DNA of 64,000 nucleotides from Chlorobiaceae bacterium (GCA_013335115.1 JAAXWQ010000001.1:310001-374000), one strand, 5' to 3'; counted from the first letter of the stretch, positions 5,359 through 22,516 are shown. The notes: generated by a model not told the origin, from the sequence alone. Numbers and translations are program-made.

Positions 5359-7065
5359 CTACCACGGCACCGAAGCAAGTTCCAGAATATTGCCTGACGG
5401 ATCGGAGCAGAACACGATGCGAACTCCCTTGACCGTCGTACGGTACAGGATCCGGCCACCATGGGATTCGGCACGACCTGCGTAAAGGTCGACGTCACCA
5501 ACGACCATGCATCCGTGGATAAAGCCTGAACGGGGCCGATCCGGTTTCGGAGGCGCAGGGAAAACCTCGAACAGCTCGATTTTCTGGAGCATCGGGGCAT
5601 CAGGAACCCGCAAGGAAACGCTCCTGACCCGGACGATGCCGCTGCCGAAAAGGGTTTTCGCAAGAGGCCAGCGCATGGGATCATCCGGACTATGGACCAG
5701 GATACTGCCAACCTGCACGAACCCGAAAACATCCCCGTACCACGTTGCAGCCTGTTCGATGTTGGCGACCCCGATTGCGATGTGGTTCCAGTGCGGGACG
5801 GCGCGTAACGAATCAAGTGCCTCGATTACCGCCCGCCTCCGTTCCGGGTCGGTTATACGTATGGCATAGTCACGCTGCGTCAGACCGGAGAAGTCCTCGA
5901 TGTCCGTCCTGGCGCCTGAACCAACTTCCCAGCGAATCTGCTCGAGGTAGGCCTGAAGGCCCTCATCATCCACCGTACCCGCCCGGAGCACGGCGTCATG
6001 CAGGGCTGTCAGGCCATTGACCGGCGGCCGCTCGTTCAGGGCGTCTGCGAGCTGGGCGGCGCTGATCCGCGACGCCATGAGCCTGAGGATGTCAATCCTG
6101 CCGAACACCGAGGCCCTGATGATGGAGTTGACCGCCATCGGATGGATCTCCCGTACCAGCGGGCTGGCGCCTCGGTCGAGCAGCAACCGGGCCAGACGCA
6201 ACCTCAAGGCCGCGACGGCCTCCGGATGCGGAGGGGCGTCAATGCCCGTCACGACGACCACCAGCGGAGGCTCGCGCAATACGCCTCCACAACGGTCGGG
6301 ATCGACCCCATCAATCGCGGTCTCCACCTCCCGGAAAAGCCGGTCCGCCTGCCCGGGATCACGGGATACGGCTGCCAGCGAAGCCTGGATGAGGGCTACG
6401 AAATCGTCCGAGCGCTTCTGGCTGACCTCCTGTCCGGGAGGCACCGATTCACGGACCTTCTCGAGAAGGGCGGCATAATAGTCCTGTTTTTGCTGTTCGG
6501 TTACCGGCCTGGAAAAAACTACGGCGAGAAGCGCATTGTTGCCGAACTGCCGCGCGAAGTCTGCGGCCGTCAGGCCCCGAAGGGTCGTGGCGGCGGGATT
6601 CGCCCCCTTTTCGAGCAGGAACGCCGCCAGCCGGACATGCCCGTAGAAGGAAGCCTCGAGCAGCGGTGTATGCCCGTTGACAGGGAATACGGCGTCGAGG
6701 TCCTGCGGCCGTGCCTCCAGAAGGCGCGATACCGCAGGCACGCTCCCGGAATGCGCCGCCATGTGTATCGGCAATGCCCCGGTCGGAGCGAAAGGCTTGC
6801 CGGGATCTGCCGTCCGCACGGGATTGTCAAGCAGCAAGTCGATTGCGCCTGCCTGGCCGCATGCGGACGCCTTGAGCAGCGGAGTCCATCCATCCTCATC
6901 CGCCTGGTCAGGATTACCGCCGGCTTTGAGCCAGGCCATGAGAGCCTTGCGGTCGCCGTGCCTTGCGGCGTCGAGCGCCGTCTGCAACGCCGGTTCGGAT
7001 GCCGGGGCACACCGGGCGGCAACAGGAACGAACAGCAGGGCAATCAGCAGGATGAGGGTTTTCAT
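5359..7065 (-). CDS. Secreted ankyrin-repeat protein with C-terminal VOC (glyoxalase-like) domain
   Basis: A 568-residue protein starting MKTLILLIALLFVPVAARC, a clear signal peptide. Residues ~25-180 hold ankyrin repeats (for example DGWTPLLKASACGQAGAIDLL, NGHTPLLEASFYGHVRLAAFL), with more divergent repeats at ~270-400. The last ~135 residues are a vicinal-oxygen-chelate fold: WNHIAIGVANIEQAATWYGD, IELFEVF, FIHGCMVVGDVDLY and SGNILELASVPW, which together supply candidate His/Glu metal ligands in the order H-E-H-E. Start ATG 7065 has a GGAG site nine bases upstream. The VOC part suggests metal-dependent chemistry or small-ligand binding in the periplasm, and the ankyrin part protein binding. 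The substrate is unknown. It is the last gene of the long minus-strand cluster. Confidence 0.85.
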   Translation of the reverse strand: MKTLILLIALLFVPVAARCAPASEPALQTALDAARHGDRKALMAWLKAGGNPDQADEDGWTPLLKASACGQAGAIDLLLDNPVRTADPGKPFAPTGALPIHMAAHSGSVPAVSRLLEARPQDLDAVFPVNGHTPLLEASFYGHVRLAAFLLEKGANPAATTLRGLTAADFARQFGNNALLAVVFSRPVTEQQKQDYYAALLEKVRESVPPGQEVSQKRSDDFVALIQASLAAVSRDPGQADRLFREVETAIDGVDPDRCGGVLREPPLVVVVTGIDAPPHPEAVAALRLRLARLLLDRGASPLVREIHPMAVNSIIRASVFGRIDILRLMASRISAAQLADALNERPPVNGLTALHDAVLRAGTVDDEGLQAYLEQIRWEVGSGARTDIEDFSGLTQRDYAIRITDPERRRAVIEALDSLRAVPHWNHIAIGVANIEQAATWYGDVFGFVQVGSILVHSPDDPMRWPLAKTLFGSGIVRVRSVSLRVPDAPMLQKIELFEVFPAPPKPDRPRSGFIHGCMVVGDVDLYAGRAESHGGRILYRTTVKGVRIVFCSDPSGNILELASVPW

Positions 7066-7250
7066 GAAGGCATTCTCCAATGAGTGGAGCCTGATGGGAT
7101 TGACGGAATATTCACTTGATGCACATTGAATGATTCATCACCTATGCGAACCACCGGCCGATACTGCCCGATAGAAATAAAAATCGCCGCTTCCATCGGA
7201 ACAAGTATCACCACAGGCAAGGACGGGATATGGCACAGACGCCATCCGCA

Positions 7251-8525
7251 TCAGAACGCAGCGACAGCCCACAGTTCATAGCGCAGGCGGCTGTGGTTGT
7301 AGGTCGGATCCACCTCGTCCTTGGTGACCATGAAGCGCAGCGTCGGCTGGAGGGTCAGCTTCACATCCTTGTCCTCATAGGCATGGTACTGGTATTGTGC
7401 CCAAGCCAGGTTGTTCGTGTAGGTCTGCTTGATGGCCACGGGCTGATCGGCGCGTTTCGACCTGTCGGTCGTCACGCTGTGGTCCCACCAGACCAGGACT
7501 GGACCATATTCGGCCTTGATCCTCGTGAAGTAGGCGGTATAATCGACAATGGCGTTCCGGTTGTCAAGTCCGTAAGGGTTCCCGCCAACCACGACGTCTG
7601 AGTTGTTATAGACGGCGCGGTCGGGCGTCGTCCCCTTCACGATGCTGTACCAGGCGCCGGCACCGATCTTCACCCCTCCGACGGGCCCGCTCAGGTTTGC
7701 ACCGAAGGTCACCGGCCGAACACCCTGGTGGAACGGCATGCGATACTTGTTGTTCAGGTTTTCGCCGGTGCCGCTGGTCGGGCCCGCAGCCTTGAAGGTC
7801 TCCTGGGTGAAGGAGTCCATCCTGGTGATCGCGGCCAGGACGATGGGTTCGACGCTCACGCCGGCGACCTCTGCCCTGTAGCTCGCCATCAGGAGGTAGC
7901 CGTCTTTCAGGAGACCATCTTTGATGTGCCTCGCTTCCTTGCCGACGATATTGTCGACCACGCCCAATGTCAGGTTCAGTTCACCCGCTCCGACCTTCGT
8001 ACCATAATTGGCGCCGAACATGCTGTCGTTCAGGAAGGTCGCCACCGGGAGCTCGATCGGGTTCCTGGGAAAGAAGGTCAGGTCATAGATTGGATTGTCA
8101 AAGGAGTTCAGGGGCAGGCGGCCGACAGCGTAGTGGCTGTCGCCGTAGTTCCTGCCTAAATAGGCATTGTTGAAACCGAGGGAGGAGAACGATGCGTTGC
8201 CGTAGCCGACGGCCTGCCATCCGCCACCGCCGCCGACAGCCACGGTACCTGGGGCGCCGAAAATACCTTTATCGGAGTCAAGCTTGTTCGGTTCTGTGTT
8301 GGCCAGCTGGACCCTGGCGTAGAAACCGTCGCCGAACCTGACGCTTCCATTCAGGGTCACGCGGTACTGCCACATGACCTCGTCGGCAAACTGGTGGTCA
8401 ATATCGTAGGTCTGGACCCTGAGCCTCGTGGAGACGTCGCCACCGAAGCCGAATTGGGCCGCGACCGCCGGCGCGGGCTGTATGGCCATGGCCAGCAACG
8501 CAGCAAAAGGGATAAGTTTTTTCAT
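7251..8525 (-). CDS. Outer-membrane porin, green-sulfur-bacterial type
   Basis: A 424-residue beta-barrel protein. It starts MKKLIPFAALLAMAIQPAPAVAA (signal peptide) and ends in an aromatic beta-signal, RYELWAVAAF, as expected for BamA-dependent outer-membrane insertion. Alternating polar/hydrophobic strands run throughout; YAVGRLPLNSFDNPIYDLTF and MWQYRVTLNGSV are shared with the next gene upstream, so the two are paralogues. An additional 27 residues could be read upstream but would bury the signal peptide. Substrate specificity cannot be told from sequence. It sits 85 bases downstream of its paralogue with a hairpin between them. Confidence 0.85.
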   Translation of the reverse strand: MKKLIPFAALLAMAIQPAPAVAAQFGFGGDVSTRLRVQTYDIDHQFADEVMWQYRVTLNGSVRFGDGFYARVQLANTEPNKLDSDKGIFGAPGTVAVGGGGGWQAVGYGNASFSSLGFNNAYLGRNYGDSHYAVGRLPLNSFDNPIYDLTFFPRNPIELPVATFLNDSMFGANYGTKVGAGELNLTLGVVDNIVGKEARHIKDGLLKDGYLLMASYRAEVAGVSVEPIVLAAITRMDSFTQETFKAAGPTSGTGENLNNKYRMPFHQGVRPVTFGANLSGPVGGVKIGAGAWYSIVKGTTPDRAVYNNSDVVVGGNPYGLDNRNAIVDYTAYFTRIKAEYGPVLVWWDHSVTTDRSKRADQPVAIKQTYTNNLAWAQYQYHAYEDKDVKLTLQPTLRFMVTKDEVDPTYNHSRLRYELWAVAAF

Positions 8526-8552
8526 GATGCAGGGGGTTTCTGATTTAAACGA

Positions 8553-8578
8553 AAATTCGGGATGCGGTGACGTCCCGA
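8553..8578 (-). terminator. Hairpin between the two porin genes, possible attenuator
   Basis: On the minus strand a 6-bp stem TCGGGA/TCCCGA with a 10-base loop is followed by ATTTTCG. It lies between the two porin genes and could terminate part of the transcripts, giving different levels of the two porins. The stem is short, so this is tentative. Confidence 0.4.
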
Positions 8579-8610
8579 CTGATTTCGGTATCCGGCGACG
8601 ACGCAAAAGG

Positions 8611-9747
8611 TCAGAAGGTGACAGTTGCCCAGAGGTCTGTGCGCAGTCGCTGCTGATTGACGTTCGTTACGCCGCCCTCGGCCTTGTTGGTCAGGTAACG
8701 CAGGGTCGGCTGGATCGTAAAGCTTGCCGATGAGGTTTTGTGCACCGGGATTTCGTAGGAGAGCCAGAAAAAGTTGTTGGTATACTTCGCTTCCGATGCG
8801 AGTGTCCGGCTCTTGTCCGTGGTGCGGTGATAATCCCAGTAGCAACGCACGGGGCCGTAGTCACCTTTGATCCTGATCTGGTAGCCGCTATAGTCCACAT
8901 CGCCGGCATTCGGTTCGTCGGTGAAACCGTTGATACCGCTGTAGCCCGTACTGTTCCTGCCGCGGGTGTAGAAGGCGCCGAGGCCGATCTTTGCCCCGCC
9001 CGCGGGAACGGTAAGGCTGGCTCCGGCCGACCATGGGGTGACGTGGGTGTACCAGGAGGAGGTATAAGGGTAGTGCATGGGAAGGCTTGTCTGCGTCACC
9101 GCCCGAATGAACTGTGGCTCGACGGTGATGTCTCCCACCTTGTCGGAATAAGAGAGGTACAGGGCGTAGCCGTCGTTGAACTTGCCGTCACCCTCCAGTC
9201 CGGTATTGTTGGCCGATCCGTTGTCAAGAACGAAAAGGCTCGCCCGCAGGTTGCCCGCAAGGAACCGGGTGTTGTAGTTCACTCCGAAAAGCCGGTCCAT
9301 GCCTACGCTGGCGAGCGGGCTCTCCAGGGGCTGGAACGGGAAGAGCGTCAGGTCGAGGATAGGAGTGTTCACTGCATTGAGCGGCAGGCGCCCGATCGCA
9401 TAGCCGTTGTCGGCCGTCTGGCGGCCAAAGGAGAAGTTCGAGACCTGCAGGTTGTAGGTCTCGCTACCGGTTACGGTGTTCCAGCCTCCGTCGCCCTCGG
9501 TCTCGTCGGTCGCCATGGCCTTGAAGTAGTACCCGTCCCCGAGGTCGGCAGAGGCGAACAGGCGAACCCGATACTGCCACATCAGGTCGCTGGCGGCCCT
9601 GCTGCTCCCTTGCGAAAATGCGGTACCGCTGTAGTTCTCGTCCCTTAACCTGAGTCCGGCGTACCCGCCGAAGTTCACTGCGGCTTCGGCAGGGGCTGCC
9701 GAAAAGAGCGCCGCTAACAGCGCCGCAAACGAAAGCGATTTGTTCAT
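8611..9747 (-). CDS. Outer-membrane porin, paralogue of the next gene
   Basis: A 378-residue barrel protein starting MNKSLSFAALLAALFSAAPAEAA (signal peptide) and ending RTDLWATVTF, a C-terminal aromatic beta-signal. Segments such as DLMWQYRVRLFASADLGDGYYF and YAIGRLPLNAVNTPILDLTLF align with its downstream neighbour, so a tandem duplication is likely. ATG 9747 is the only start that leaves the signal peptide at the N-terminus; the frame is open far upstream but that part overlaps glgX. It follows glgX after 136 bases, which may contain a separate promoter. Confidence 0.85.
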   Translation of the reverse strand: MNKSLSFAALLAALFSAAPAEAAVNFGGYAGLRLRDENYSGTAFSQGSSRAASDLMWQYRVRLFASADLGDGYYFKAMATDETEGDGGWNTVTGSETYNLQVSNFSFGRQTADNGYAIGRLPLNAVNTPILDLTLFPFQPLESPLASVGMDRLFGVNYNTRFLAGNLRASLFVLDNGSANNTGLEGDGKFNDGYALYLSYSDKVGDITVEPQFIRAVTQTSLPMHYPYTSSWYTHVTPWSAGASLTVPAGGAKIGLGAFYTRGRNSTGYSGINGFTDEPNAGDVDYSGYQIRIKGDYGPVRCYWDYHRTTDKSRTLASEAKYTNNFFWLSYEIPVHKTSSASFTIQPTLRYLTNKAEGGVTNVNQQRLRTDLWATVTF

Positions 9748-9883
9748 ATGGTTGTCAGTTTTGTTGCTATTACCCCGCCGAATCCGGAAGTAACCAGAAC
9801 TATCACAGACCATGCATAAAGCCGTTTGAGCGGCATTATCCACGAGATGGGAAAAGGAACCGGACTCCCGGCGCCGTTTTCCG

Positions 9884-11998
9884 TCAACCGGGAAGCACCT
9901 CAAGCAGAACGCTTGAGCGGGGTCCCAGGAGAAACCGGCTCCCGGGCCGGATCGCCGGCCCCTGGCCCGGCTCGAAAGCGTCGTCGGGCGCAGGGCACCC
10001 CGTATTGGCTGAAACACGCCATACCAGGCCATCGGGGAGGGCCGGCAGTTCGACCATGGCCGGCAGGTGCCCGGCATTCCATGCATAGAAGAGGACGTCG
10101 TCGCCCGAAGGCGTAGCCGTTGCGAACAGCGCGGCAACGATGCGTGAATCATCGGACCAATCCGGCTCCCATGGGCGGCAGCCGTGCCACGACACCTCGG
10201 GAAATCCGAGGGCTCCCGGGGTGTCACTCCTCGGATGATGCCCCAGGCGCAGGACAGGATGTGCTTTCCGCAGGGCAATAACCAGACGGGTGAATCGGAA
10301 AAGCTCCTGCTCGCGGTCGAGGAGCGTCCAGTCCAGCCAGTTGAATTCGTTGTCGTGGCAATAGGCGTTGTTGTTACCCCGCTGCGTGCGTCCCATCTCG
10401 TCGCCCATGAGCATCATGGGGGTCCCACGGGCCACCATGAGCGCCAGGAGGGCGTTCTTGCTTTGTCGAAGGCGGAGCGCGACGATCTCCGGATCACCGC
10501 TATCCCCTTCTTCCCCGCAGTTCCAGCTCCGGTTGTCGTCGCAGCCGTCACGGTTATCCTCGGCGTTCGCATCATTGTGCTTTGCATTGTAGCTGACCAG
10601 GTCGCGAAGCGTGAAGCCGTCGTGGCAGGTGATGAAGTTGATCGAGGCCTGGGGCCCCCTGCCTCCGGGCTCGTAGAGGTCGGGCGAACCGGAGAGGCGC
10701 GTGGCCACGAGGCCGGCGCGACCGGACTCGCCGCGCAGGAAATCGCGCAGGTCGTCCCGGAATTTCCCGTTCCATTCGGAGAAACGGCCATAATTGGGGA
10801 ATTTGCCAAGCAGGTAGAGCCCGCCGGCGTCCCAGGCTTCGGCGATCAGCTTGCACTTCTTCAGGATCGGGTCCAGCGCGACCGACTCGAGCAACGGCGG
10901 GTTGTTCAGCACCGCCCCCGAAAAATCGCGCCCGAGGATCGCCGCGGCATCGAACCTGAAGCCGTCGATATGGTATTCGGAAACCCAGAAGCGCAGGCAT
11001 TCGAGCACCATGTCCCTGACGACAGGGTTGTTGCAGTTGAGCGAGTTCCCGCAACCGCTGAAGTTGTGGTAGTATCCTTCAGGGGTGAGCATGTAGTAAA
11101 TCTGGTTGTCGAGCCCCCTGAACGAGATGGTCGGCCCCCGGTGGTCCCCTTCGCAGGTGTGGTTGAAGACGACGTCGAGGATGACCTCGATGCCGGCGGC
11201 ATGCAGGGCGCGAACCATGCTCTTGAACTCGTCAGCCTGCATCCCCATGGAACCGGTCGCCGCGTACCCCCCTTTCGGCGCGAAGAAGCCGACGGTGCTG
11301 TATCCCCAGTAGTTCATCTTGTTGTCGCCGGTCCAGGGGTTCGGCTCGGACATCTCGAACTCGTCGAATTCGAACACCGGCAGCAGCTCAACGCAGTTGA
11401 CGCCAAGGCTCTCCAGGTAGGGAATTTTTTCGACGACCCCCGCATAGGTGCCCGGATGGGGCACGCCGGAGGATGGGTGCCGGGTGAAGCCGCGGACATG
11501 CATTTCGTAGATGACGAGCCCTCCCGCCGGAATCTCAAGCGGTCGGTCGCCGCGCCAGTCGAAATCCTCGGGGATGACGAAGCCGCGGTACGGGAACCCG
11601 TCGTCCCGGTCAGGCGTGGCGCCCCAGACATCCCGTCCAGAAATGGAGCGGACATAGGGGTCGAGCAACACCTTCGACGCGTCGAAGCGATGCCCCGCCA
11701 CCGGGTCCCACGGCCCCTCCATCCTGAAGCCATACTCGAAGCTTTCAGGATCGAGGTCGAAAATCGTGATACTCCAGACATCGCCGATCTTGAAGGCATC
11801 GGGTACCTGGAGCTCACCCATCAAAGCCCGGCTCTGCCGGTCGAAGAGTACCAGGGAGCATGTTGTGGCGGTGCTGGAAAAAACCGAAAAATTGACCCCG
11901 CCGGCCACGAGCGATGCGCCGTAGGGCCTGACACGGCCAGGGCGCACTTTCCACCCGGAAATCTCGAAGGTGGGATAAAGATCTATTCGTCCACTCAT
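9884..11998 (-). CDS. glgX: Glycogen debranching enzyme (isoamylase-type, GlgX)
   Basis: A 704-residue GH13 isoamylase/GlgX enzyme that cleaves alpha-1,6 branches of glycogen. An N-terminal CBM48-type domain (about 1-150, beginning RVRPYGASLVAGGVNFSVFS) precedes the catalytic barrel. Catalytic residues are visible: nucleophile Asp350 in GFRFDAA, acid/base Glu387 in LIAEAWD, and Asp460 in NFITCHDGFTL. Length fits the family. Green sulfur bacteria store glycogen, so a cytoplasmic glycogen-degradation role is expected. Unusually, it sits 12 bases after a STAS protein within a signalling/envelope cluster rather than with other glg genes. Confidence 0.94.
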   Translation of the reverse strand: MSGRIDLYPTFEISGWKVRPGRVRPYGASLVAGGVNFSVFSSTATTCSLVLFDRQSRALMGELQVPDAFKIGDVWSITIFDLDPESFEYGFRMEGPWDPVAGHRFDASKVLLDPYVRSISGRDVWGATPDRDDGFPYRGFVIPEDFDWRGDRPLEIPAGGLVIYEMHVRGFTRHPSSGVPHPGTYAGVVEKIPYLESLGVNCVELLPVFEFDEFEMSEPNPWTGDNKMNYWGYSTVGFFAPKGGYAATGSMGMQADEFKSMVRALHAAGIEVILDVVFNHTCEGDHRGPTISFRGLDNQIYYMLTPEGYYHNFSGCGNSLNCNNPVVRDMVLECLRFWVSEYHIDGFRFDAAAILGRDFSGAVLNNPPLLESVALDPILKKCKLIAEAWDAGGLYLLGKFPNYGRFSEWNGKFRDDLRDFLRGESGRAGLVATRLSGSPDLYEPGGRGPQASINFITCHDGFTLRDLVSYNAKHNDANAEDNRDGCDDNRSWNCGEEGDSGDPEIVALRLRQSKNALLALMVARGTPMMLMGDEMGRTQRGNNNAYCHDNEFNWLDWTLLDREQELFRFTRLVIALRKAHPVLRLGHHPRSDTPGALGFPEVSWHGCRPWEPDWSDDSRIVAALFATATPSGDDVLFYAWNAGHLPAMVELPALPDGLVWRVSANTGCPAPDDAFEPGQGPAIRPGSRFLLGPRSSVLLEVLPG

Positions 11999-12010
11999 GG
12001 CGGCAATGGT

Positions 12011-12343
12011 TTAGGAGATGGCTGCTACGGCATTTTCGACCGTGCCGTAAGTGATGAATTGCTCCCAGAACCCGGTGACCGACATGACGTCCTTCACGGA
12101 ATCGGGTACGGCCGCAAGGACCAGTTTCTTGCCGGCCTGGCGGGATTCACGATAAAGCAGCAGGAGCGTGCGGAGCCCGGCGCTCGTGAGTAGACCGATG
12201 CCTTCGAAGTCGAGCACGAGCCCCCCGGCAGAACCGAGGGCGGAGAAAAGACCCGCCTCGAATTCACCGGCGACGGCATGGGTGATGTCTCCGGTGACGG
12301 CCGCAACCAGCGCTTTACCGGATGGTGATATAGTGATGTTCAT
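12011..12343 (-). CDS. STAS-domain anti-sigma-factor antagonist (RsbV/SpoIIAA-like)
   Basis: A 110-residue single STAS domain. The signature LLTSAGLRTLLLLY is present, with Ser54 the likely residue phosphorylated by a partner RsbW-type kinase. Family role: unphosphorylated RsbV-like proteins bind the kinase and release its target; an RsbU phosphatase reactivates them. A kinase and a phosphatase are fused in one protein encoded two genes upstream, and a second STAS gene lies at 16284-16631. The start ATG 12343 follows the stop of the preceding gene after one base (TGACATG). glgX begins 12 bases downstream. Confidence 0.9.
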   Translation of the reverse strand: MNITISPSGKALVAAVTGDITHAVAGEFEAGLFSALGSAGGLVLDFEGIGLLTSAGLRTLLLLYRESRQAGKKLVLAAVPDSVKDVMSVTGFWEQFITYGTVENAVAAIS

Positions 12344-12344
12344 G

Positions 12345-12872: not shown

Positions 12873-15299
12873 TCAGTCCTCCTTCGTTTTCAGTTTATGC
12901 CCCATGGTCGGGCGTGTCCTTGAGCGAACCATCACCAGGACATTGATGTCGGAAACGCGGTACAGGTGATATTCATCGGTCGAATTGCCGATGATGAACC
13001 AGCCCAGCCCCCCGGCCTGGCGATCCTCGAGGGGAAGGGTAACATCGACTGGCGACAACTCCGAGGGATTGAACGGCGGGCCGGGGTCTTCGATGCGCAC
13101 GACAAGATCGTCGTCGGACCAGGAAACAAAGACACGGTAGGAGAGCGCCTCGTCCTCGTGGAGCGAGTAGGAGATGACGTTGGTGACCGCTTCACAGGCC
13201 GCCAGGGATATCTCGCGTGCAGCCGCCGTGCCCATTCCACCCTCGATGGCCGTCGATTCGACCATCGCCACAACCTCTCCGATGGTCGCCATGGAGGCCG
13301 GCAGGCACAGCTGCCGGGCTGGATGACCTGCCCGGACGAGCGTCAGGGTGATGTCGTCGAATCGTTCATCGCCTACCTGCCATGCCTGGACCGCCTCCAA
13401 CAGATCAAGCGAGGATTGGTCTACCGGCCGCAGGCGGTTCAGCGACAGGAAACCATTCATTCGTTCCATGCCGAACTGCTCCCCCGACGGATCCATGGCT
13501 TCGCTGATGCCGTCCGTATAGATCGCCAGGAGGTCTCCTTCGTTGAACGGGACCTGCCATACCGGGAACTGCTGCCCGGTAATCACACCGAGGGCAGGAC
13601 CGCTACGCTTCGAAAGGCTTTCGACAGTTCCATCGGCCCTGACCAGGACCGGCGGGTTGTGGCCGGCGTTGACATAACTGAGCGTCTGCCCCACCGGATC
13701 CATGACCGCATGGAAGAGCGTGACGAACATCATCGTCGGGTTCGATTCTGCAAGCATCGTATTGATGCGGGTGATCGCCTCTCCGGGCCCGACAACCGAG
13801 GCCAGGCTACGCAACAACAGGCTGACCTGCATCATGAACATCGCTGCCGAGACCCCCTTGCCGGAAATGTCCCCGACCGTGAAGACCGTCAACCCGCCAG
13901 GCAGCACGAAATGGTCGTAGAAGTCCCCGCCGACCTCAAGCGCCGGGACCGAAAGGCTGAAATGGCATCCTCCAAGGAGCTTCATCGGCTCCGGGAGCAC
14001 CGAGGCCTGGATCGTATGGGCGAGTGCCAGCTCGGTCGACAGGCGCTGCTGGCTTCGGGCCATCTCCTCGCGCTTGAGTATCGACCGGTTCAGCTCCCCG
14101 ACCATGCCGTTGAACGCATCGATGACGTCTGCGGTTTCGTCGTGGGTGGCCGACAGTTTCTGTATCGTCGTGAAATTCCCATCCTGCACGCTCCTCACCC
14201 CTTCACGCAATAGATCGAGGTTCCTGGTAGCACGCCCGGCACTCCAGCTGAACAGCAGGCCGATGCCGACAATGCAAAGCAACCCCGCCAACAGCACGCC
14301 TCCGGCAAACAACCATTGTTCCGTGGCGAACTGGCTGAGAGGAAAGACATACAGGAAAATGAGCGACAACCCTGGAACCCGTTTGTAGACAAAAAAAGAG
14401 TGCCCTTTCCCGAAAGGGTCTTCAGCTTCGAAAGAGCCCGTCTCAAGTGAGGAGTTGCTGAGCCCTGGATAACGGCGCGCGGGTACAGGCTTCGAGTCCA
14501 CAAGGGCATGGAGACTGCCGGCCGGAGCCACGCCCTCCGCGTTGCCAACAGACGCAGAGGCGAGAACATGGTGTCCGGAGTCGAGAACGTAGAGCCGGCA
14601 GTCGGCATTGATGTCGACGGCCGCCATACGCCGAAGAAACGTGTCGATACTGACGTCGACGGCGGCCACCCCGTCGAGCGACGCTTTGCCGGCCTCGACG
14701 CGGTTGATTGGCAGAATGCAGGATACCACCTGACGGCGCCCGGTTTCGGGAGAGGTGTAGGGACTGCTCCAGTTCCCTACAGTCGACGACACCCCCACCT
14801 CGCGGGCAGGCAGGTACCAATGGAGACCGGGCCCCTCCAGCTCTTCGGGCAGGTACCGCAGCTTCTCACGGGCGACCTTTCCATCCCCATCTGACCGGAC
14901 ATAATAAGCACGTTTTTTATCCGGATTGAACTTGCTGCCTTGCTCGAATGCCAGCCTTACCCCGCTGGCGCTTGGCATACGGTCGAGCGCACCCTCCATG
15001 ATGTCGTACCACGACTGCGATCCGGCAGGTTTCCACATCTGCACCAGGTCAGTTAGCGACAGCAGTTCCTGCCTGACCTCATACATATCGGACGAAGCCT
15101 TCACGAAGGATGCTTCGAGCCGGGTCCGGAGTTCATCCTCTTCGCGGTCGATGATTGCCAGGTGTCCCAGCCAGACGATCACCGGCGCGGCCAGCAGGAA
15201 CACCACGCCGGAACAGATCAGGGCGATGACCGTGAAGCGCTCCCTGAGCGTCCGGGGCAGGATGCCGTGAGCGGCTATGTTCCGATACCTGACGGTCAC
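12873..15299 (-). CDS. Membrane sensor with fused RsbU-type PP2C phosphatase and RsbW-type kinase
   Basis: About 808 residues. Transmembrane helix 1 (about 22-50) and helix 2 (about 328-352) enclose a ~275-residue periplasmic sensor region that resembles a dCache module; a HAMP-like linker follows (353-410). A SpoIIE/RsbU PP2C phosphatase spans ~425-655, with GGDFYD (457-462), GDISGKG (476-482), TDGISE (595-600) and the final DD (648-649). A GHKL kinase of the RsbW type spans ~665-800, with the N-box EAVTN (703-707) and nucleotide loops DPG (738-740) and GGLGWFI (763-769). The predicted start is GTG 15299, overlapping the upstream stop as GTGA; no in-frame ATG precedes helix 1. One chain therefore carries both opposing activities of a partner switch, with STAS substrates encoded on both sides. 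Confidence 0.88.
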   Translation of the reverse strand: MTVRYRNIAAHGILPRTLRERFTVIALICSGVVFLLAAPVIVWLGHLAIIDREEDELRTRLEASFVKASSDMYEVRQELLSLTDLVQMWKPAGSQSWYDIMEGALDRMPSASGVRLAFEQGSKFNPDKKRAYYVRSDGDGKVAREKLRYLPEELEGPGLHWYLPAREVGVSSTVGNWSSPYTSPETGRRQVVSCILPINRVEAGKASLDGVAAVDVSIDTFLRRMAAVDINADCRLYVLDSGHHVLASASVGNAEGVAPAGSLHALVDSKPVPARRYPGLSNSSLETGSFEAEDPFGKGHSFFVYKRVPGLSLIFLYVFPLSQFATEQWLFAGGVLLAGLLCIVGIGLLFSWSAGRATRNLDLLREGVRSVQDGNFTTIQKLSATHDETADVIDAFNGMVGELNRSILKREEMARSQQRLSTELALAHTIQASVLPEPMKLLGGCHFSLSVPALEVGGDFYDHFVLPGGLTVFTVGDISGKGVSAAMFMMQVSLLLRSLASVVGPGEAITRINTMLAESNPTMMFVTLFHAVMDPVGQTLSYVNAGHNPPVLVRADGTVESLSKRSGPALGVITGQQFPVWQVPFNEGDLLAIYTDGISEAMDPSGEQFGMERMNGFLSLNRLRPVDQSSLDLLEAVQAWQVGDERFDDITLTLVRAGHPARQLCLPASMATIGEVVAMVESTAIEGGMGTAAAREISLAACEAVTNVISYSLHEDEALSYRVFVSWSDDDLVVRIEDPGPPFNPSELSPVDVTLPLEDRQAGGLGWFIIGNSTDEYHLYRVSDINVLVMVRSRTRPTMGHKLKTKED

Positions 15300-16222
15300 C
15301 AGCCGTAACGCCTGAGACCGTGTTCGAGCACCTCGACCAGTTTCTGGCCGCACAGTTCGGAATCACCGGTGGTACGGGCCGTGATGATCGGATAGTCCAC
15401 GATCACCGAGTATTTCTTCCCGACATTACCGATGAACTGACCTTCGAGCCCAACGGCATCCTTCAGGATGAACTCGAGCTGGTAGGGGGCCCCCTGGAAA
15501 CCATGGTCGATCTTCAGGTAACCGTGGCCGTCGTTGTAGTCGAACGCCAGAGGATGGCCGGTGACCCGCTTGCCGAAAACGATGCTCTTTTCGGTGACCT
15601 CGTCGCGAGTGAAGGCAAGAACCGCGACGCCGTAGCACTCCCCGGCAACAGGCTTGCCCGCCTTGATGAAAAGACGGATCAGGTCATGGAGCCGCTTGTT
15701 GTTGGCCATGTCGAGGATCGGCCCGGAACCGCCGACGAGGACCAGCGCATCGTATTTCCTGACATCGCCGGCAATCCTGTCGAGCGCCGCGTTGTAGGCA
15801 AAAAGCTCGTCAAGGTACTTCGGCGAGCTGAAATAGGGCTTGACCGGCAGCCAGGCCGTCAGGTTGAGCGGCTTGTCGAGCTTGTCGGAAGCCTCTATCC
15901 TGCGCACTTTTTCGGCGACTTCGGGCGTAGTGACCGTGCGGCCGAGGGGCGGATCGACATAGTTGGGGTCCATGCTGGGCGGCAACGCAAGCGGCTTGGT
16001 CCCCTTCGGGGTAGCGAAGTCAATCTTGTAGCCTGCATTCTCGAGCACCTCCAGCGGTCCGAGCAGCTCTTCGCCCCAATAGCCAAACTCGGAAAGGACG
16101 AAAAGGACCCGCTTGTTGAGGTGGCGGTTGGTACCCTGGCGATCGTCCGCCGAGGCTTGACGGGTCACCGCCGTTCCGATGAGCAGGAACACAACGGCTA
16201 TTTTCAGGAATTTCATCTTCAT
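15296..16222 (-). CDS. Exported DJ-1/PfpI-family protein
   Basis: 308 residues with a signal peptide (MKMKFLKIAVVFLLIGTAVTRQASA) before a class-I glutamine-amidotransferase-like fold. The nucleophile elbow is AGECYGVA with Cys196, and an acidic residue for the DJ-1 active site is available in YWGEELLGP (around 51-52). Residues ~75-150 form an insertion relative to short PfpI proteins, resembling the long Hsp31/type-1 glutamine amidotransferase-like members. Family members are deglycases, chaperones or stress proteins; export to the periplasm is uncommon. A GGAG site precedes ATG 16222. The stop overlaps the GTG of the sensor gene by four bases, showing translational coupling. Confidence 0.85.
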   Translation of the reverse strand: MKMKFLKIAVVFLLIGTAVTRQASADDRQGTNRHLNKRVLFVLSEFGYWGEELLGPLEVLENAGYKIDFATPKGTKPLALPPSMDPNYVDPPLGRTVTTPEVAEKVRRIEASDKLDKPLNLTAWLPVKPYFSSPKYLDELFAYNAALDRIAGDVRKYDALVLVGGSGPILDMANNKRLHDLIRLFIKAGKPVAGECYGVAVLAFTRDEVTEKSIVFGKRVTGHPLAFDYNDGHGYLKIDHGFQGAPYQLEFILKDAVGLEGQFIGNVGKKYSVIVDYPIITARTTGDSELCGQKLVEVLEHGLRRYGW

Positions 16223-16283
16223 GGTGGGCTATCTCCCGATTCGAAATGTTGATGGATTTGTTTCAAACGAAGGACAAGGTTCC

Positions 16284-16631
16284 TTATGACGAAATCTTCC
16301 GGACCGCATCTTCAACCCCAAGGGTAATGGTGAAATACCGAAGAAAGCCGGTGATGTCAAGCGTATCACGCATGGTGTCGGTCAGCCGGCAGAGGACGAG
16401 TCCACCATCCAGCTTGTTGACCTGCCGGACGACCAGCAGAAGCATCCGCAACCCGCTGCTCGCCAGGTAAGTGACCCCTCCGAAATCGAGCACGAGGAAC
16501 TTCTTCCCTTCCTGGATCATCCTGACAAGCCGTTCTTCGACAGACGGCGTCGTCGAGGCGTCCAGCTTTCCGAGCAGTTCGACGATGGTCGTGTCTCCCT
16601 GTGCCTTTTCCTTGATCTCTATCATGTTCAT
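16284..16631 (-). CDS. STAS-domain anti-sigma-factor antagonist, second copy
   Basis: A 115-residue STAS protein. The phospho-site motif is YLASSGLRMLL (Ser58 or Ser59). It is diverged from the STAS protein at 12011-12343 but has the same length class and fold. It lies 31 bases after the carbohydrate-binding-like protein and 61 bases before the DJ-1 gene, inside the same minus-strand run. With the fused phosphatase/kinase downstream it could be one of two alternative substrates of the same sensor. No sigma factor or anti-sigma target is encoded in the window. Confidence 0.9.
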   Translation of the reverse strand: MNMIEIKEKAQGDTTIVELLGKLDASTTPSVEERLVRMIQEGKKFLVLDFGGVTYLASSGLRMLLLVVRQVNKLDGGLVLCRLTDTMRDTLDITGFLRYFTITLGVEDAVRKISS

Positions 16632-16661
16632 GCGATTTGGTCTTGTTGGACAACTCTAACG

Positions 16662-18257
16662 TCAGCGAAGCCTGATGAAGTTAACGGAATACTCACCTGA
16701 TTCGACGTCGGCCGAGAAGCGGTAGAGGCCGCTGTCGGGGCACTCGAACCGGAGCGCCGGAGGATTGCCATGCGGCGCGAGGCGGCGGTAGCCGTCGTAG
16801 GGGTAATCGACCAGCGACCATGCCCATCCTGCACGGTTGGCGGTATACTTATACTCGTAAACGACGCCACCGGCCAGATTGAGCTCTTTGGTATAACGGC
16901 GGCCGTCCAGGGAAGCCATGTCATGACCCGGATCAGTCGGGTTCCAGCCCCCGCTGCCGTCCATTGCAAGCTCCGGGAAATTTCCCGATATCTGCAGGGA
17001 CTCGACGTTCGTCAACGGCCTGACCCCGGGCTCGAAGGAGAAGGTCCCTTTTGCCGGATCGAGGGTCACCAGGTAATCGCCCTCGCGTTCGACACGGAAC
17101 AGCAGGTTCCACTCCTGCGGGTCCGAATGCCAGGTGCGCCCCCAGGCCCCACCGAAGCCGATGCTGTCGAGCGCCCAGTTGCCGTCGATGGAGAAGTTCA
17201 TCGTGTAGGTGCCGTTGCCGAGCGAACCGCCGTTTGGGGTCAGGTGCAACTGCTTCGTCCAGTTTCCCCGGGCGTCCTGTGCCATCCTGTGCGACGGGGA
17301 TGCCGGATTCCACGGATCCTCCACGACATCGCCGTTGACCTGGAACTCCTGGCCCCGGAAATATTCGACGGAGGGGGTGATGGTGTAACGACATAAGTAC
17401 GGTTGGACGGTGATGGTGTATTCGCCATCCTTCACGACACGGAAAACGACGGCGGACTCGCCGATATGGCCGACCCTGCTGTCGTAACCGTTCCCGGCAG
17501 CAAGGCGTCCGGGCTGGCCGATGATGCCGCCGTAGCCCCAGTCCGAATTGTGGTTTGCGGAGAAGAGGCACTGGTAGACACCGTTCTTCTCATGACCCCC
17601 GGTCGACGACAGCGGTAGCGTGATGCTCCAGGAGCCATCCGGCCGGCGGGTGAATTCGTGTCCAGGGGCCCATTCGTCCCACTTTTCTGCCGGGCGGGTC
17701 CTCCGCCCGTCGAACCATTCTGTTGCGCCTTCCCGGTCGTGCACGAATCCATTCACCTGGAATGACTTGATCTTCATCTTCTCCTCGACCCGGGGCCTGA
17801 TGAAGTAGGTGCCGGCCGCAGGATCGAAGCCGACCGTGTACCAGCCGTCCCTCGGAACCCTGAAAATGACATTGCCTGCCGAAGCGGACATGGGGCCACT
17901 GACCAGCCGGCCGGCTCGTGCACCGCGTTTGAAAACCTCGCGCAGTTCCCTGCCGGTATGGAACCGCATGGCATAGATGCCGTCGGCGTTGCGTCCACCG
18001 GTTGTACTGAGGTAAAACCTGCGGCTGAAAACCCCTCGTGCTTCACGATGCATATCGTTGCCGGCATGGAACGGGTTCCAGCCGTACCTTCCGCCGACGA
18101 CGGTACCGACGACCTGGGCGCTGGCCGGTACGTGTGGTTTTGCAAACGCGGCAGGGGAAGCCAGCAGAGCCAATCCGGTCAGGATGGTTGCAGCCGCTTT
18201 CCCAATCCATGCCGGGCAGGTCCGGTGCAAGGTTCGATTTGCCATACCAATGTCCAT
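16662..18257 (-). CDS. Secreted protein with four tandem carbohydrate-binding-like beta-sandwich repeats
   Basis: 531 residues with an N-terminal signal peptide (ILTGLALLASPAAFA). Four repeats of roughly 110-130 residues follow. Each has an entry like QVNG or QISGNF, a motif resembling WNPxxPxHxM (YGWNPFHAGNDM, DPWNPASPSHRM, GWNPTDPGHDM; more divergent in repeat 2), a middle strand G-x-Y-x-x-x-FS, and a closing hairpin such as FRVEREGDYLVTLDPAKGTF. The layout recalls CBM48/CBM20-like or SusE/SusF glycan-binding sandwiches, so alpha-glucan binding is a reasonable guess, not proven. ATG 18257 has GGGAG five bases upstream; a GTG at 18275 overlapping the previous stop is the alternative. No catalytic domain is visible. 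Confidence 0.75.
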   Translation of the reverse strand: MDIGMANRTLHRTCPAWIGKAAATILTGLALLASPAAFAKPHVPASAQVVGTVVGGRYGWNPFHAGNDMHREARGVFSRRFYLSTTGGRNADGIYAMRFHTGRELREVFKRGARAGRLVSGPMSASAGNVIFRVPRDGWYTVGFDPAAGTYFIRPRVEEKMKIKSFQVNGFVHDREGATEWFDGRRTRPAEKWDEWAPGHEFTRRPDGSWSITLPLSSTGGHEKNGVYQCLFSANHNSDWGYGGIIGQPGRLAAGNGYDSRVGHIGESAVVFRVVKDGEYTITVQPYLCRYTITPSVEYFRGQEFQVNGDVVEDPWNPASPSHRMAQDARGNWTKQLHLTPNGGSLGNGTYTMNFSIDGNWALDSIGFGGAWGRTWHSDPQEWNLLFRVEREGDYLVTLDPAKGTFSFEPGVRPLTNVESLQISGNFPELAMDGSGGWNPTDPGHDMASLDGRRYTKELNLAGGVVYEYKYTANRAGWAWSLVDYPYDGYRRLAPHGNPPALRFECPDSGLYRFSADVESGEYSVNFIRLR

Positions 18258-18271
18258 CGAATCTCCCGTTT

Positions 18272-20566
18272 TCACTTTTTCTGGCCGGCCTGGCCGACAG
18301 GCTGGATGATTTCGCTCAGCGACATCCGGCTGTCCATGACGTCGTAAACCCCGCCAAGGATATCTGAAACCCGCATCCGCTCATCTGCGGGAAGCGATGC
18401 GACACCGATAAGGATACGGTCGAGCGCCACTTCTCCAAGGTCGGGAAGTAGCGGCAACACCTCCTCTTTCAGTTGCCTGCCCGCCCCTTCGGAACTGAGC
18501 GTCCGGCACATGACCCCGACCGCATGATCCATGAGGGACATTTCTGCGCCGAAGCGCACCATACCAGCCCCGGCAAGGATCCTGATGGCCGCATCAGGGG
18601 ATTCGAGCAGCATTGCAGGCAGGGATGCAGCCGGGCACTCCCCGACGAGATGGCAGGCCACGAGGGCCGCCTTCACCGCTTCCGGGTCCCCGGAGGCCAG
18701 CAATCCGGCGAGTCTCTCCCTGAGGGCCACCTTCATCCCCGCCTCGTCCCAGAGCGCCTTGACGACAGCCGCCACGACCACGCCGGAGGGGTCGTCGAGC
18801 AATGGCTCGAGCAGGGCCCTGCGGTTTGCCGAGTGCATGCCGAGGGCTTCGACGATGCGCTTGCGGACCGGCACCGATTCATGTTCGAGCCATTTCCGCG
18901 CCTTCTGTTCCCAGGCTTCCGGTGATTCCCTGTGCAGGCTGATCTTGAATGCATCCGCGCGGATGGCCGGTTCGGGATCCGATTCGACCACCTGCCTGAG
19001 TGCCTCGTCGACAACATGCGGGAGGTCCCGAACATGCTGTCTGGAGATCGACCGCAAGGCTTCGGCCCGCACCTGGGGCGCAGGATCCAGGAGCATGCCG
19101 CACAGCGCCTGTAGCGAGGCTTCACCAGGGATGTTCCCCCGGACCCGGGCCGCCGCCGCCCGCCGTTCAGGGTCGGCCATGCCGGCCACCTCGTCGAGCA
19201 ACGCCCCGGCCCTGCCGCTGCCCGGCTCGACGAGGCACTCGATCGCATCCATCACGGTCCGTTTTTCAGGACTCCTGAGGTTGTCGGCAATCAGGTTCAG
19301 GTAGTGCTTCTGCGAACCGACGACCACCACGATCCAGAGGGTGGCGAGCAGGATGCCGGCAATCGTCACCTCGTCGCTCCACCCCTGGCCATCCGTCGCA
19401 TCGAAGGCCGCGTGCAGGGCGAGGATGAGCAGGCCGCCGAGCACACCGCCAAGCGGATTGACCACCCCTTCGATGAAGCCACGGATACGCGCACGGAGCG
19501 CCGATGGCATGGCGTTCTGAGCAAGCTGGTAAGAGTTCCCCTGGAGGGTCATGCCGACGAGGTCCCAAGTGAAACGGAGGAAGAATCCCGCCCAGAAGAC
19601 GGGTTGCAGGGCGATGAAGGCGAATCCCGCCAGCACGGTGATGGGCAGGGCACAAAGGCCTCGGGAGACGCCGATCCGCCTGATGAGGTAACCGCTGAAC
19701 AGCACCTGCACCAAGAGGCCGGTGACATTGATGACGATATTATAGATACCGTAGAACCCGGCAAGCTTCGCCTCGGTAGGGAAAGTGGCGTTCATGATGC
19801 GGGTGTATTGGAAATCGGCGACGGAGCCGACCACCCAGAACATTACGGCGACGAAGCCAAGCACAAGGGCCATCGGGGAACTGGCAAAAAATCTCGCCCC
19901 CTCTTTCAGGTGAGCCCCCTTCTCCTTGTCACCGGCCTCGGCCTTACTCCTCCCACCCAGTTCACCGCCGAACCGCTGCCTGAGCAGCATGGTGAGCGGT
20001 ATCAGCGCCAGGACCGAAACGGCCCAGACCAGGGTGAGGTTGGCCGTGCCCATCGAATTGGCGAGGAAATGGATCGAAGCGCCGCCGGCGATGCCGCCGA
20101 TGGTTCCCGCGGTGCCGACGATGGGATAGAGGCGCCGCCCCTGCGACGGGGTGAAAAGGTCGCTGATGATGGTCCAGACCTGTGTCCCGAGAGTCGAGTT
20201 GCCGACCCCCTGGGCAAAAAAGACGACCATGAAAAAGAGGAACAGCTGCAGGGTGAACCCCGGCGTGCTCTCCTGGTTGGCGGAGACCAGCATGCGTGCA
20301 AGGAGCAGCAGCAGGCCGGTGACGAGGGAGAAGAGGATCAGCAGCCGGTCGCGCCGCACTTTGTCGGCGAACATCAGGTAGACCGATGAGCCGAGCATAC
20401 CGAGCAGGCTGATGCCGATGTAGGTGTAGGGCAGGTACTGGATGCCCATCCGCTTGACCAGCATCGAATGCACCGCGCTCCACCCGATCGAGTAGCCGAC
20501 GGCCAGCAGCGCGACCATCACCCAGGTGACGACCACCTTTGAAATCTCCTCTTTGCGTACCTGCAT
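18272..20566 (-). CDS. MFS / ATP-ADP-translocase-like transporter with C-terminal HEAT-repeat domain
   Basis: 764 residues. The first ~425 contain about twelve transmembrane helices; segments such as TLGTQVWTIISDLFTPSQGR and LYPIVGTAGTIGGIAGG resemble the Npt1/Npt2 nucleotide-translocase branch of the major facilitator superfamily. From ~440 to 740 the chain is soluble and made of HEAT-type helical repeats (AALLDEVAGMADPERRAAAA, ALCGMLLDPAPQVRAEALRS and so on). The substrate cannot be assigned; the HEAT tail suggests a cytoplasmic protein partner. It ends in GTGA, overlapping a possible start of the next gene, and follows the AGE-like gene by 60 bases. Confidence 0.8.
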   Translation of the reverse strand: MQVRKEEISKVVVTWVMVALLAVGYSIGWSAVHSMLVKRMGIQYLPYTYIGISLLGMLGSSVYLMFADKVRRDRLLILFSLVTGLLLLLARMLVSANQESTPGFTLQLFLFFMVVFFAQGVGNSTLGTQVWTIISDLFTPSQGRRLYPIVGTAGTIGGIAGGASIHFLANSMGTANLTLVWAVSVLALIPLTMLLRQRFGGELGGRSKAEAGDKEKGAHLKEGARFFASSPMALVLGFVAVMFWVVGSVADFQYTRIMNATFPTEAKLAGFYGIYNIVINVTGLLVQVLFSGYLIRRIGVSRGLCALPITVLAGFAFIALQPVFWAGFFLRFTWDLVGMTLQGNSYQLAQNAMPSALRARIRGFIEGVVNPLGGVLGGLLILALHAAFDATDGQGWSDEVTIAGILLATLWIVVVVGSQKHYLNLIADNLRSPEKRTVMDAIECLVEPGSGRAGALLDEVAGMADPERRAAAARVRGNIPGEASLQALCGMLLDPAPQVRAEALRSISRQHVRDLPHVVDEALRQVVESDPEPAIRADAFKISLHRESPEAWEQKARKWLEHESVPVRKRIVEALGMHSANRRALLEPLLDDPSGVVVAAVVKALWDEAGMKVALRERLAGLLASGDPEAVKAALVACHLVGECPAASLPAMLLESPDAAIRILAGAGMVRFGAEMSLMDHAVGVMCRTLSSEGAGRQLKEEVLPLLPDLGEVALDRILIGVASLPADERMRVSDILGGVYDVMDSRMSLSEIIQPVGQAGQKK

Positions 20567-20626
20567 GCTCCGTTCCGGTTTGGTGTTCCTAAGGCTCCCG
20601 TCTGCTTTCGGGCTGCTTTCGGCAGC

Positions 20627-22516
20627 TCATCGGGGAACGAGCGTCACGACCACCGGTTCGGGCACCTTCCAGTCGGGCAGCATGACGGAGAGCCTGTCTG
20701 AGTCGAAATTGCGCCATGGGCGGCCGCCGATGCTCACCGAAGCGAGCCGGACGGAGCCCTTCGGGAAGGCGATCGGCTGGACCTGGAACCGGGTTCCCGC
20801 AGCTTCAGCGCCTGGCCGGAAATGTAGTGCTACCGGACGACGGTTGACCAGCAGGTTGGTGTAAAGGTGCGCGAAATAGGTCAGTTCCATATTGTGGTAG
20901 CCGCTTTTCGAATGGCTCCCCTTGTCGGCCCGATCGCCCAGCAGGTAGGGTGTACCGTCCGACTGGCAGTCGAAGAAGATGTCGCCGTCGTCATGGTCCG
21001 GGAACGCCAGGTTGTAGAAGCCGGAGCCGGCACGGGCAGAGGCGAGGTAGGCGGGATCATGGACGGTACCGTACAGGACATAGTAGGCCAGGATGCCCTG
21101 CTCCTGCTGCCACCAGGCCTTCCTGTCGTGCCAGACCAGTTCGTAACGGCCGGTCACCGGGTCGGGCTCCCGTTCGATCACGTCGTACCAGCCTCCGCGG
21201 CGGACATCCTGGCCATAGACCTCCATCAGGTCTGCGCATTTGCGGGCGGTCCGCAGGTAGCGGTCATGGGGGGCCAGGCCGTGCAAGCGGGTCAGGCACC
21301 AGGCGATCTTGAGGTTGTGCCCTACCACGCCCCGGTTCTGCTGCCAGGCATAGCCATGGTCCGGATTCCAGCGGGCGTCGAACCGTTCGTTCACGAAGGG
21401 GCTCCCCTTGTCCGGGAAGTGCTCGACGATCAGGTCGGCCAGCTCGACAAGCCGCTTGAGGTGTTTCGGGTCGCGGGTGCCCAGATAGAGGTTCTCGAGG
21501 TAGGCCGGAAGGTGGTCGCCGACCGAATTCCAGTTCTTGCGGAGGCCGTTGGGCCCGCTCTCGACAACCTGCAGCGTCCCGGGATCGAGATGGGAGAAGT
21601 AGCCCCGCTGCATCGGGTCTTTCGGTGTACCGTCCCAGTAGTGCTCGTCCATGAAACGGATGGTCTTCTCGATATCGGCCAGGATGACGGTATCCCCGGT
21701 GGCGCGATAGTACTGGGTGAGGCCCGCGAGGCAGTAGATCTGCTCGTAGAGCGGTATCGTACCCGCGTCGTCGGCAAAGAGCGAGGCAAGGACGGGGCGC
21801 CCGTCCCGCAACGCATGCAGCCAGTATACCTGCGTGCCGTCGGCGCTCTCGATGCGGAACCGCTCACGCTGGTAGCGCACCAACTGCCTGGCCGCTTCGA
21901 GCACCCTCGGGTTGCCGTTGAGGATATAGGTGGAACTGAGCCCGTAAATGAGCCGGGAAATGGTGTCGGTCTCCTGCAGGTTGACCGATTCGGGCCGCTT
22001 CGTCCCGGCCTTGGTGATATTGGTACGGTAGGCCGTGGGATCGACGGGGTCGCCGGGGCCGAACTGCGTTTTTATCCAGAAGTCAGCCAGCTCCCTGGCC
22101 TGTGAAGACCACCAGTCGGGATCCTCGAAAATCGGCTTGTCGACGGCATGGTCGAAAAAGGTGACCTCCTTGGCGACCAGCTCGGGGCGGTCCGAATAGA
22201 CCAGGCCCGAAGCTGCGATGCGAGTACCGGAAGCGAAGGCCGGGATCCCCTTCGGCTCGGGGCGGCGGGAGCGTTCGTCGAGGCCCTTGAGCGGATGGAG
22301 ATAGGCGTTCGAAGCGATCCTGAGCCTTTGTGTCGAACCGTCGAGCAGCCTCACAACGACGAGAGCGCTATCGGGGTTCACCCTACTCACCGTGCCCTGG
22401 ACACGATCGTAACGGACCGTCGGCACGGGCTTCGACGCAAGGGCGGCTGTTGCTGGAACGGAAAAGATATGGCAGGCGAGCAGGAATCCAGGAATTCCGT
22501 AAGAGCAATTGGCCAT
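20627..22516 (-). CDS. AGE-like (alpha/alpha)6-barrel protein, probable sugar-active enzyme, exported
   Basis: 629 residues. It starts MANCSYGIPGFLLACHIFSV, a probable signal peptide, and is preceded by a strong GAGGAGG ribosome site, which fixes ATG 22516. A ~110-residue beta-rich N-terminal region (YDRVQGTVSRVNPDSALVVV) precedes a helical barrel (~150-560) resembling N-acylglucosamine 2-epimerase/cellobiose epimerase folds: YGLSSTYILNG, GVVGHNLKIAWCLTRL, and KAWWQQEQGILAYY near the pocket. A short beta-domain closes the chain. Epimerase, isomerase or glycoside hydrolase/lyase activity are all possible on this fold. It is the first gene of the long minus-strand cluster. Confidence 0.7.
   Translation of the reverse strand: MANCSYGIPGFLLACHIFSVPATAALASKPVPTVRYDRVQGTVSRVNPDSALVVVRLLDGSTQRLRIASNAYLHPLKGLDERSRRPEPKGIPAFASGTRIAASGLVYSDRPELVAKEVTFFDHAVDKPIFEDPDWWSSQARELADFWIKTQFGPGDPVDPTAYRTNITKAGTKRPESVNLQETDTISRLIYGLSSTYILNGNPRVLEAARQLVRYQRERFRIESADGTQVYWLHALRDGRPVLASLFADDAGTIPLYEQIYCLAGLTQYYRATGDTVILADIEKTIRFMDEHYWDGTPKDPMQRGYFSHLDPGTLQVVESGPNGLRKNWNSVGDHLPAYLENLYLGTRDPKHLKRLVELADLIVEHFPDKGSPFVNERFDARWNPDHGYAWQQNRGVVGHNLKIAWCLTRLHGLAPHDRYLRTARKCADLMEVYGQDVRRGGWYDVIEREPDPVTGRYELVWHDRKAWWQQEQGILAYYVLYGTVHDPAYLASARAGSGFYNLAFPDHDDGDIFFDCQSDGTPYLLGDRADKGSHSKSGYHNMELTYFAHLYTNLLVNRRPVALHFRPGAEAAGTRFQVQPIAFPKGSVRLASVSIGGRPWRNFDSDRLSVMLPDWKVPEPVVVTLVPR

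Follow-up and report, generated by a model that had tools for sequence, protein, structure and literature searches.

An icfG-type gene cassette predicted to couple a partner switch to alpha-glucan metabolism in Chlorobiaceae, in an exported, sensor-fused variant

In Synechocystis PCC 6803 the slr1852-slr1862 (icfG) operon encodes an N-acylglucosamine-2-epimerase-like protein (AGE; Slr1855), two STAS proteins (Slr1856 and Slr1859), the glycogen debranching enzyme GlgX (Slr1857), the PP2C phosphatase IcfG and the RsbW-like kinase Slr1861, and has been linked to inorganic carbon and glucose phenotypes (PMC12329169, PMC8670252). Slr1861 phosphorylates Slr1856, Slr1859 and Ssr1600 and acts as an anti-SigC factor, and IcfG dephosphorylates Slr1856 (PMC12329169). 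Here we analyse a block of twelve minus-strand genes at positions 22516-5359 of a 64,000-nucleotide window from the 2.10 Mb genome of a Chlorobiaceae bacterium (GCA_013335115.1, JAAXWQ010000001.1:310001-374000). A preliminary description of this DNA stated that no described system of this composition was known to it, a claim that must be withdrawn: the icfG operon has the same core, and plasmid versions exist in several phyla. Judged by homology and gene order, the neighbourhood is a real one, and it is an icfG-type switch-plus-glucan cassette whose enzymes are predicted to be exported and whose kinase-phosphatase is fused to a putative sensor.

Relationship to the icfG operon and to plasmid-borne cassettes

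All twelve genes of the preliminary description are present and open, with the domains that it named. Their order is AGE-MFS-X25-STAS1-PfpI-[PP2C-kinase]-SnoaL-STAS2-GlgX, followed by porin A, porin B and an ankyrin-glyoxalase gene. Clustered AGE, GlgX and two STAS genes are shared with the icfG operon, as are a SpoIIE/PP2C phosphatase and an RsbW-type kinase. In contrast to icfG, phosphatase and kinase form a single protein with a membrane sensor in front of them; AGE, PfpI and SnoaL are predicted to be exported; genes for an MFS-HEAT protein, a protein with four X25 domains and an ankyrin-glyoxalase protein are present; and no SigC-type sigma factor accompanies the cassette.

Searches by tblastn with the AGE and PfpI of the window as queries identified related cassettes on plasmids. 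One from Streptomyces encodes PfpI, a thiamine pyrophosphate (TPP) enzyme, DJ-1, AGE, STAS, GlgX, STAS, RsbW, SpoIIE and MinD; its Deinococcus counterpart has the same genes plus NTF2 and VOC, with an unannotated RsbW that was detected by tblastn, and the two share the order AGE-STAS-GlgX-STAS-(RsbW)-SpoIIE. The Runella plasmid cassette comprises NTF2/ester cyclases, DJ-1, VOC, AGE, STAS, GlgX, STAS and RsbW and, later, a distant MFS-HEAT homologue (E 5e-20). Nostoc NIES-3756 has DJ-1, AGE, STAS, GlgX and MinD, and partial cassettes were found in Gemmobacter, Nostoc C052, Gloeothece, Gloeocapsopsis and Nostoc ATCC 53789. The plasmid cassettes of Runella, Streptomyces, Deinococcus, Nostoc and Gemmobacter thus have AGE, GlgX and mostly PfpI in common with the window, and several also share NTF2, STAS, RsbW and SpoIIE; their homologues lack leaders, and many add TPP-enzyme, DJ-1, GMC and MinD genes. 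The GlgX of the window is 57-60% identical to copies from AGE-STAS-GlgX orders and approximately 45% identical to those from GlgX-AGE orders, in agreement with the GlgX tree, and PfpI (50-58%), AGE (42-44%) and SnoaL (26-31%, to cassette NTF2) likewise match plasmid-cassette homologues.

No description of this wider cross-phylum cassette was found in the open-access literature. The cassette, often plasmid-borne, is seen in cyanobacteria, actinomycetes, deinococci, Bacteroidota, alphaproteobacteria and green sulfur bacteria, and the little-understood icfG operon can now be linked to it. The constant parts of the cassette (AGE, GlgX and often STAS, PfpI and NTF2) can be told from the variable ones (sensor, transporter and export). 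What appears to be new in the window, on the evidence of these comparisons, is the variant: enzymes with export leaders, a sensor-fused kinase-phosphatase, and added four-repeat X25 and MFS-HEAT proteins.

The plasmid records (L053-L058, L096-L098) contain AGE-GlgX-PfpI-TPP-NTF2-DJ1-VOC cassettes, often with GMC oxidoreductases and alpha-glucan enzymes. Genes for Nif11/NHLP-type leader peptides of ribosomally synthesized and post-translationally modified peptides lie within or beside Nostoc cassettes (L098:17146-17806, L053:1-327), and STAND/WD40, NB-ARC and CHAT proteins, possibly signalling or defence-like parts, are encoded beside others (L054:19013-22204, L057:4994-8515, L096:16437-17789).

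Distribution and insertion site in the Chlorobiaceae

Across 86 genomes of the family, a full-length homologue of the RsbU-type phosphatase-kinase (at least 53% identity) occurs in five (G000, G012, G026, G027 and G085), and the genomes with an MFS-HEAT orthologue are precisely these five. If presence were unrelated, an identical pattern would arise by chance once in 34.8 million, a figure that is overstated owing to shared descent. Three of these genomes (G026, G027 and G085) have the order AGE-MFS-X25-ankyrin/VOC-STAS1-PfpI-RsbU-SnoaL-STAS2-GlgX, with which the cassette of G012, split over three contigs, is compatible. The ankyrin gene therefore lies between X25 and STAS1 in relatives and at the far end, past the porins, in the window, from which we infer that it moved within the cassette in this genome. 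Outside the survey, a 10-kb contig labelled Chthoniobacter flavus (Verrucomicrobia; L050) carries AGE-MFS-STAS1-PfpI-RsbU-ankyrin/VOC at 43-69% identity; X25, SnoaL, STAS2 and GlgX were not found on this contig, which ends at the ankyrin gene. The contig belongs to a metagenome-assembled genome from a sulfidic cave and may be a misbinned Chlorobi-like contig with the type I core, as we term the arrangement of the window.

A second arrangement, type II, has the order NTF2-PfpI-TPP-DJ1-VOC-GlgX-AGE-STAS in four genomes (G019, G052, G057 and G083), and a short contig of a fifth (G053) shows only GlgX-AGE-STAS. It has NTF2, PfpI, VOC, GlgX, AGE and STAS in common with the window, at approximately 42% (AGE) and 45% (GlgX) identity to type I, and forms separate branches in the AGE and GlgX trees, which identifies it, as far as sequence comparison goes, as a separate acquisition. 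GlgX was detected in 11 of the 86 genomes, namely the ten cassette carriers (five of each type) and G080, where it lies at a contig edge; at the same threshold it was not found in the remaining genomes. Within the family GlgX thus appears to occur only in cassette carriers (shown for ten of the 11, the other being the contig-edge copy), and natural carriers and non-carriers therefore make a role of the switch in glycogen directly testable.

That the genes have unrelated functions and simply happen to lie side by side in one orientation is scarcely credible. Such a view would fit the loose spacing of the porins and the ankyrin gene and the different places that these take in different genomes (in G012 the porins are found upstream of AGE). 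Against it stand the identical five-genome distribution and a neighbourhood conserved in two genera and on the Verrucomicrobia-labelled contig, from which it follows that the arrangement is more than chance, together with overlapping genes and a gene set that recurs across phyla. The unrelated-neighbour view is contradicted for the nine-gene core and stands only for the porins, which we reject as cassette members because their family was present in all 25 genomes tested.

Spacing leads to the same nine genes. From AGE to GlgX the gaps are 60, -4, 30, 61, -4, 0, 1 and 12 bp, so that the compact unit comprises nine genes with no gap above 61 bp. At 18275 and at 15299 a GTG start shows a 4-bp overlap with the stop before it, as the preliminary description had it, and STAS2 starts at 12343, 1 bp past the SnoaL stop. 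Its further claim of spacers mostly below 65 bases applies to these nine genes only: the spacers after GlgX measure 136 bp (to porin A), 85 bp (to porin B) and 185 bp (to the ankyrin gene), of the same order as the 186 bp separating the ankyrin gene from thiM. A single twelve-gene cluster is accordingly too wide, since the porins belong to a general Chlorobiaceae family and the ankyrin gene lies elsewhere in relatives. A weak terminator-like stem directly follows GlgX (9872-9859); stems in the region are as frequent as in shuffled sequence (15 observed, 14.8 expected), so the promoter and terminator scan yields no firm unit boundaries. Rfam and tRNA scans gave no matches.

The block fills an insertion between PAP2 and thiM; PAP2-GT39-GT2-LPG synthase genes flank it at one end, thiM-purU-mgtA at the opposite end. 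The cassette of G026 lies between the same flanks. In G030, of the same genus, PAP2 and thiM are less than 0.4 kb apart with no cassette part between them, and this near-empty site and the shared flanks therefore set the limits of the inserted block at 22516-5359. PAP2 adjoins purU in G018 and G024; among other non-carriers purU lies a few kb off in G004, G010 and G002, and outside the fetched stretch in G008 and G014. None of these flanking genes occurs within the fetched stretch around the cassettes of G027 and G085, which must therefore sit elsewhere in those genomes. No repeats marking an insertion were found at the two block edges, each searched separately.

Taken with the plasmid relatives, these data make it probable that the block arrived by lateral transfer and is an icfG-type cassette, in which a partner switch would be coupled to alpha-glucan metabolism in an exported variant. 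Several observations weigh against this reading. The G+C content of the nine-gene core (61.6%) equals that of the rest of the window (61.7%), and a recent transfer therefore finds no support in base composition. The icfG order AGE-STAS-GlgX-x-STAS-PP2C-kinase differs from that of the window, which is therefore filed as a variant of the icfG kind and not as the icfG operon itself; the block also lacks the TPP-enzyme, DJ-1 and MinD genes known from plasmid cassettes. The proposed homology to icfG itself is argued from its published annotation and from plasmid relatives in Nostoc and others. The dCache/PDC and HAMP matches of the fused switch protein fall below Pfam cut-offs. Finally, no dedicated alternative sigma factor was found in carriers, which, like non-carriers, have one RpoD-length and one to three extracytoplasmic function (ECF)-length sigma factors per genome. 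The hypothesis of an extra sigma factor is thus rejected, and the output would have to be RpoD, an ECF factor or a non-sigma partner.

Switch, export and putative role

The preliminary description proposed a complete RsbU/RsbW/RsbV-type switch, of which kinase, phosphatase and antagonists stand; no dedicated sigma factor was found. The fused protein retains the PP2C motifs GGDFYD, GDISGKG, YTDG and FDDIT as well as the kinase N-box (E..N) and GGLG, and alignment shows that the phosphorylatable serines of STAS1 and STAS2 are conserved. Its sensor phosphatase architecture is like that of SiaA in the SiaABCD system, although it scores only 39 bits against the SiaA model, far below cut-off, and the diguanylate cyclase SiaD has no equivalent in the block. 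The phosphatase-kinase fusion is shared with Rv1364c (3ke6), unlike which the window protein has no fused STAS domain.

The count of six or seven exported or outer-membrane products is borne out: seven have N-terminal hydrophobic leaders (AGE, the X25 protein, PfpI, SnoaL, both porins and the ankyrin-glyoxalase protein), called by hydropathy, not SignalP, and neither the STAS proteins nor GlgX has one. AGE, PfpI, SnoaL and the ankyrin-glyoxalase protein have leaders in every type I copy found, in the five carriers and on the Verrucomicrobia-labelled contig (SnoaL where found), whereas plasmid and type II homologues start at or near the domain and have none. On that contig the AGE open reading frame begins MKSIVFSFVCWVVLAGSVMG, the leader being read from the full frame rather than from an internal start. 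Export of four such proteins, and the recurrence of PfpI and VOC with AGE in most cassettes, would suit a carbonyl- or redox-stress module in which they act on periplasmic reactive sugars or aldehydes, the switch reports stress and GlgX is minor. However, GlgX is at least as constant across cassettes as the VOC proteins, and PfpI, with NCBIfam scores far under cut-off, does not qualify as canonical DJ-1 or HchA; we regard such a module as decidedly improbable.

The glycan-binding part of the preliminary description stands as a starch-binding fold with a leader, supported by Pfam and a model of one repeat. The four X25 repeats are approximately 20-24% alike and share an aligned tryptophan, and Pfam X25 matched six of 16 repeat sequences. 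Since the model of the full protein has low confidence (51.6), that of a single repeat (pLDDT 81.7) was used; it resembles Sca5 X25-2 (7rpy), the Amy703 N/F domain, AmyP-SBD, Bacillus acidopullulyticus pullulanase (BaPul) and SusF. Binding of maltooligosaccharides and amylopectin has been described for the X25 modules of Sca5/Sas20 (PMC9112005). On these models the four-repeat protein of the window is an exported protein of starch-binding fold, with glucan binding predicted, and its tandem beta-sandwich repeats and predicted export are also those of SusE/SusF-type proteins. The SusF-like repeats, and the exported AGE, MFS protein and porins adjoining GlgX, bring to mind a polysaccharide-utilisation locus, in which external alpha-glucan would be bound by X25, pass the porins, be modified in the periplasm and be imported by the MFS protein to GlgX under control of the switch. 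We consider this unlikely, as the twelve genes include neither a SusC/SusD pair nor a secreted glycoside hydrolase, the porins are not cassette-specific, and the MFS-HEAT protein, which also weakly matches ADP/ATP-type carriers, may transport something other than sugar. Moreover, obligate autotrophy is the rule in green sulfur bacteria.

Returning to the icfG-type cassette, its likely role, as predicted from the encoded domains, is to sense periplasmic carbon or stress and so control alpha-glucan use. In a mechanism modelled on its homologues, the periplasmic part of the fused protein would detect a cue related to carbon or stress; this might be something produced by the exported AGE, PfpI, SnoaL or ankyrin-glyoxalase proteins, or glucan held by the X25 protein. 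The cue would set the balance between the phosphatase and kinase activities of the fused protein towards STAS1 and STAS2, whose phosphorylation state would free or capture an output partner that adjusts alpha-glucan use by the co-encoded GlgX. This partner could be a non-sigma target or, by analogy with the holding of SigC by Slr1861 in Synechocystis, an ordinary sigma factor (RpoD or ECF). We tentatively entertain a sigma-free switch, in which the STAS proteins would directly control some metabolic target, for instance GlgX, and the sensor would read products of periplasm-relocated enzymes; if true, a carbon-control cassette of the cytoplasm would have come to face the envelope. The original idea of a combined glycan and switch system, once its twelve-gene width is given up, is in keeping with a coherent module, the conserved neighbourhood, the X25 fold and the occurrence of GlgX with cassettes.

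Genes of the block and minor observations

Table 1. Genes of the block, in order of transcription, with window coordinates.
Feature	Coordinates	Strand	Evidence
AGE, exported N-acylglucosamine-2-epimerase-like protein (predicted), 629 aa	20627..22516	-	PF07221 1.4e-14; leader in all type I copies
MFS transporter-like membrane protein with C-terminal HEAT repeats, 764 aa	18272..20566	-	MFS_1 3.2e-13, HEAT_2 1.5e-12
Predicted exported protein with four tandem X25 starch-binding-type domains, 537 aa	16662..18275	-	PF22058 X25
STAS1, anti-sigma-antagonist-like, conserved phospho-acceptor Ser in LASSGL	16284..16631	-	STAS 2.2e-20, alignment
PfpI/ThiJ-like class I GATase-fold protein with export leader, Cys in GECYG	15296..16222	-	PF17124, PF01965
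Membrane sensor phosphatase-kinase, dCache/PDC-like - HAMP - SpoIIE PP2C - RsbW-type HATPase, 808 aa from GTG 15299	12873..15299	-	SpoIIE 2.9e-45, HATPase_c_2 5.6e-16, weak HAMP and PDC
SnoaL/NTF2-like protein with export leader, 175 aa	12345..12872	-	SnoaL_2 1.8e-6
STAS2, second antagonist-like protein, conserved Ser in LTSAGL	12011..12343	-	STAS 5.5e-12, alignment
GlgX glycogen debranching enzyme, no leader, 704 aa	9884..11998	-	TIGR02100 676 bits (cutoff 641)
Porin A-like; neighbour, not cassette-specific	8611..9747	-	homologues in 25/25 genomes; upstream of AGE in G012
Porin B-like; neighbour, not cassette-specific	7251..8525	-	family found in 25/25 genomes
Predicted exported ankyrin-repeat protein with C-terminal glyoxalase (VOC); cassette member displaced here	5359..7065	-	Ank_4 5.6e-20, Glyoxalase 2.1e-9

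By sequence, AGE gave only weak matches to the PDB. Beyond the block, divergent PAP2, GT39-type glycosyltransferase, GT2 and LPG-synthase-like genes at 22680-26790 are kept in the genus independently of the cassette. In G085 (L045/L049) the ankyrin-glyoxalase match falls into two pieces (to residue 509, then from 511), suggesting a frameshift, and one in-frame TAA is reported in the RsbU match.

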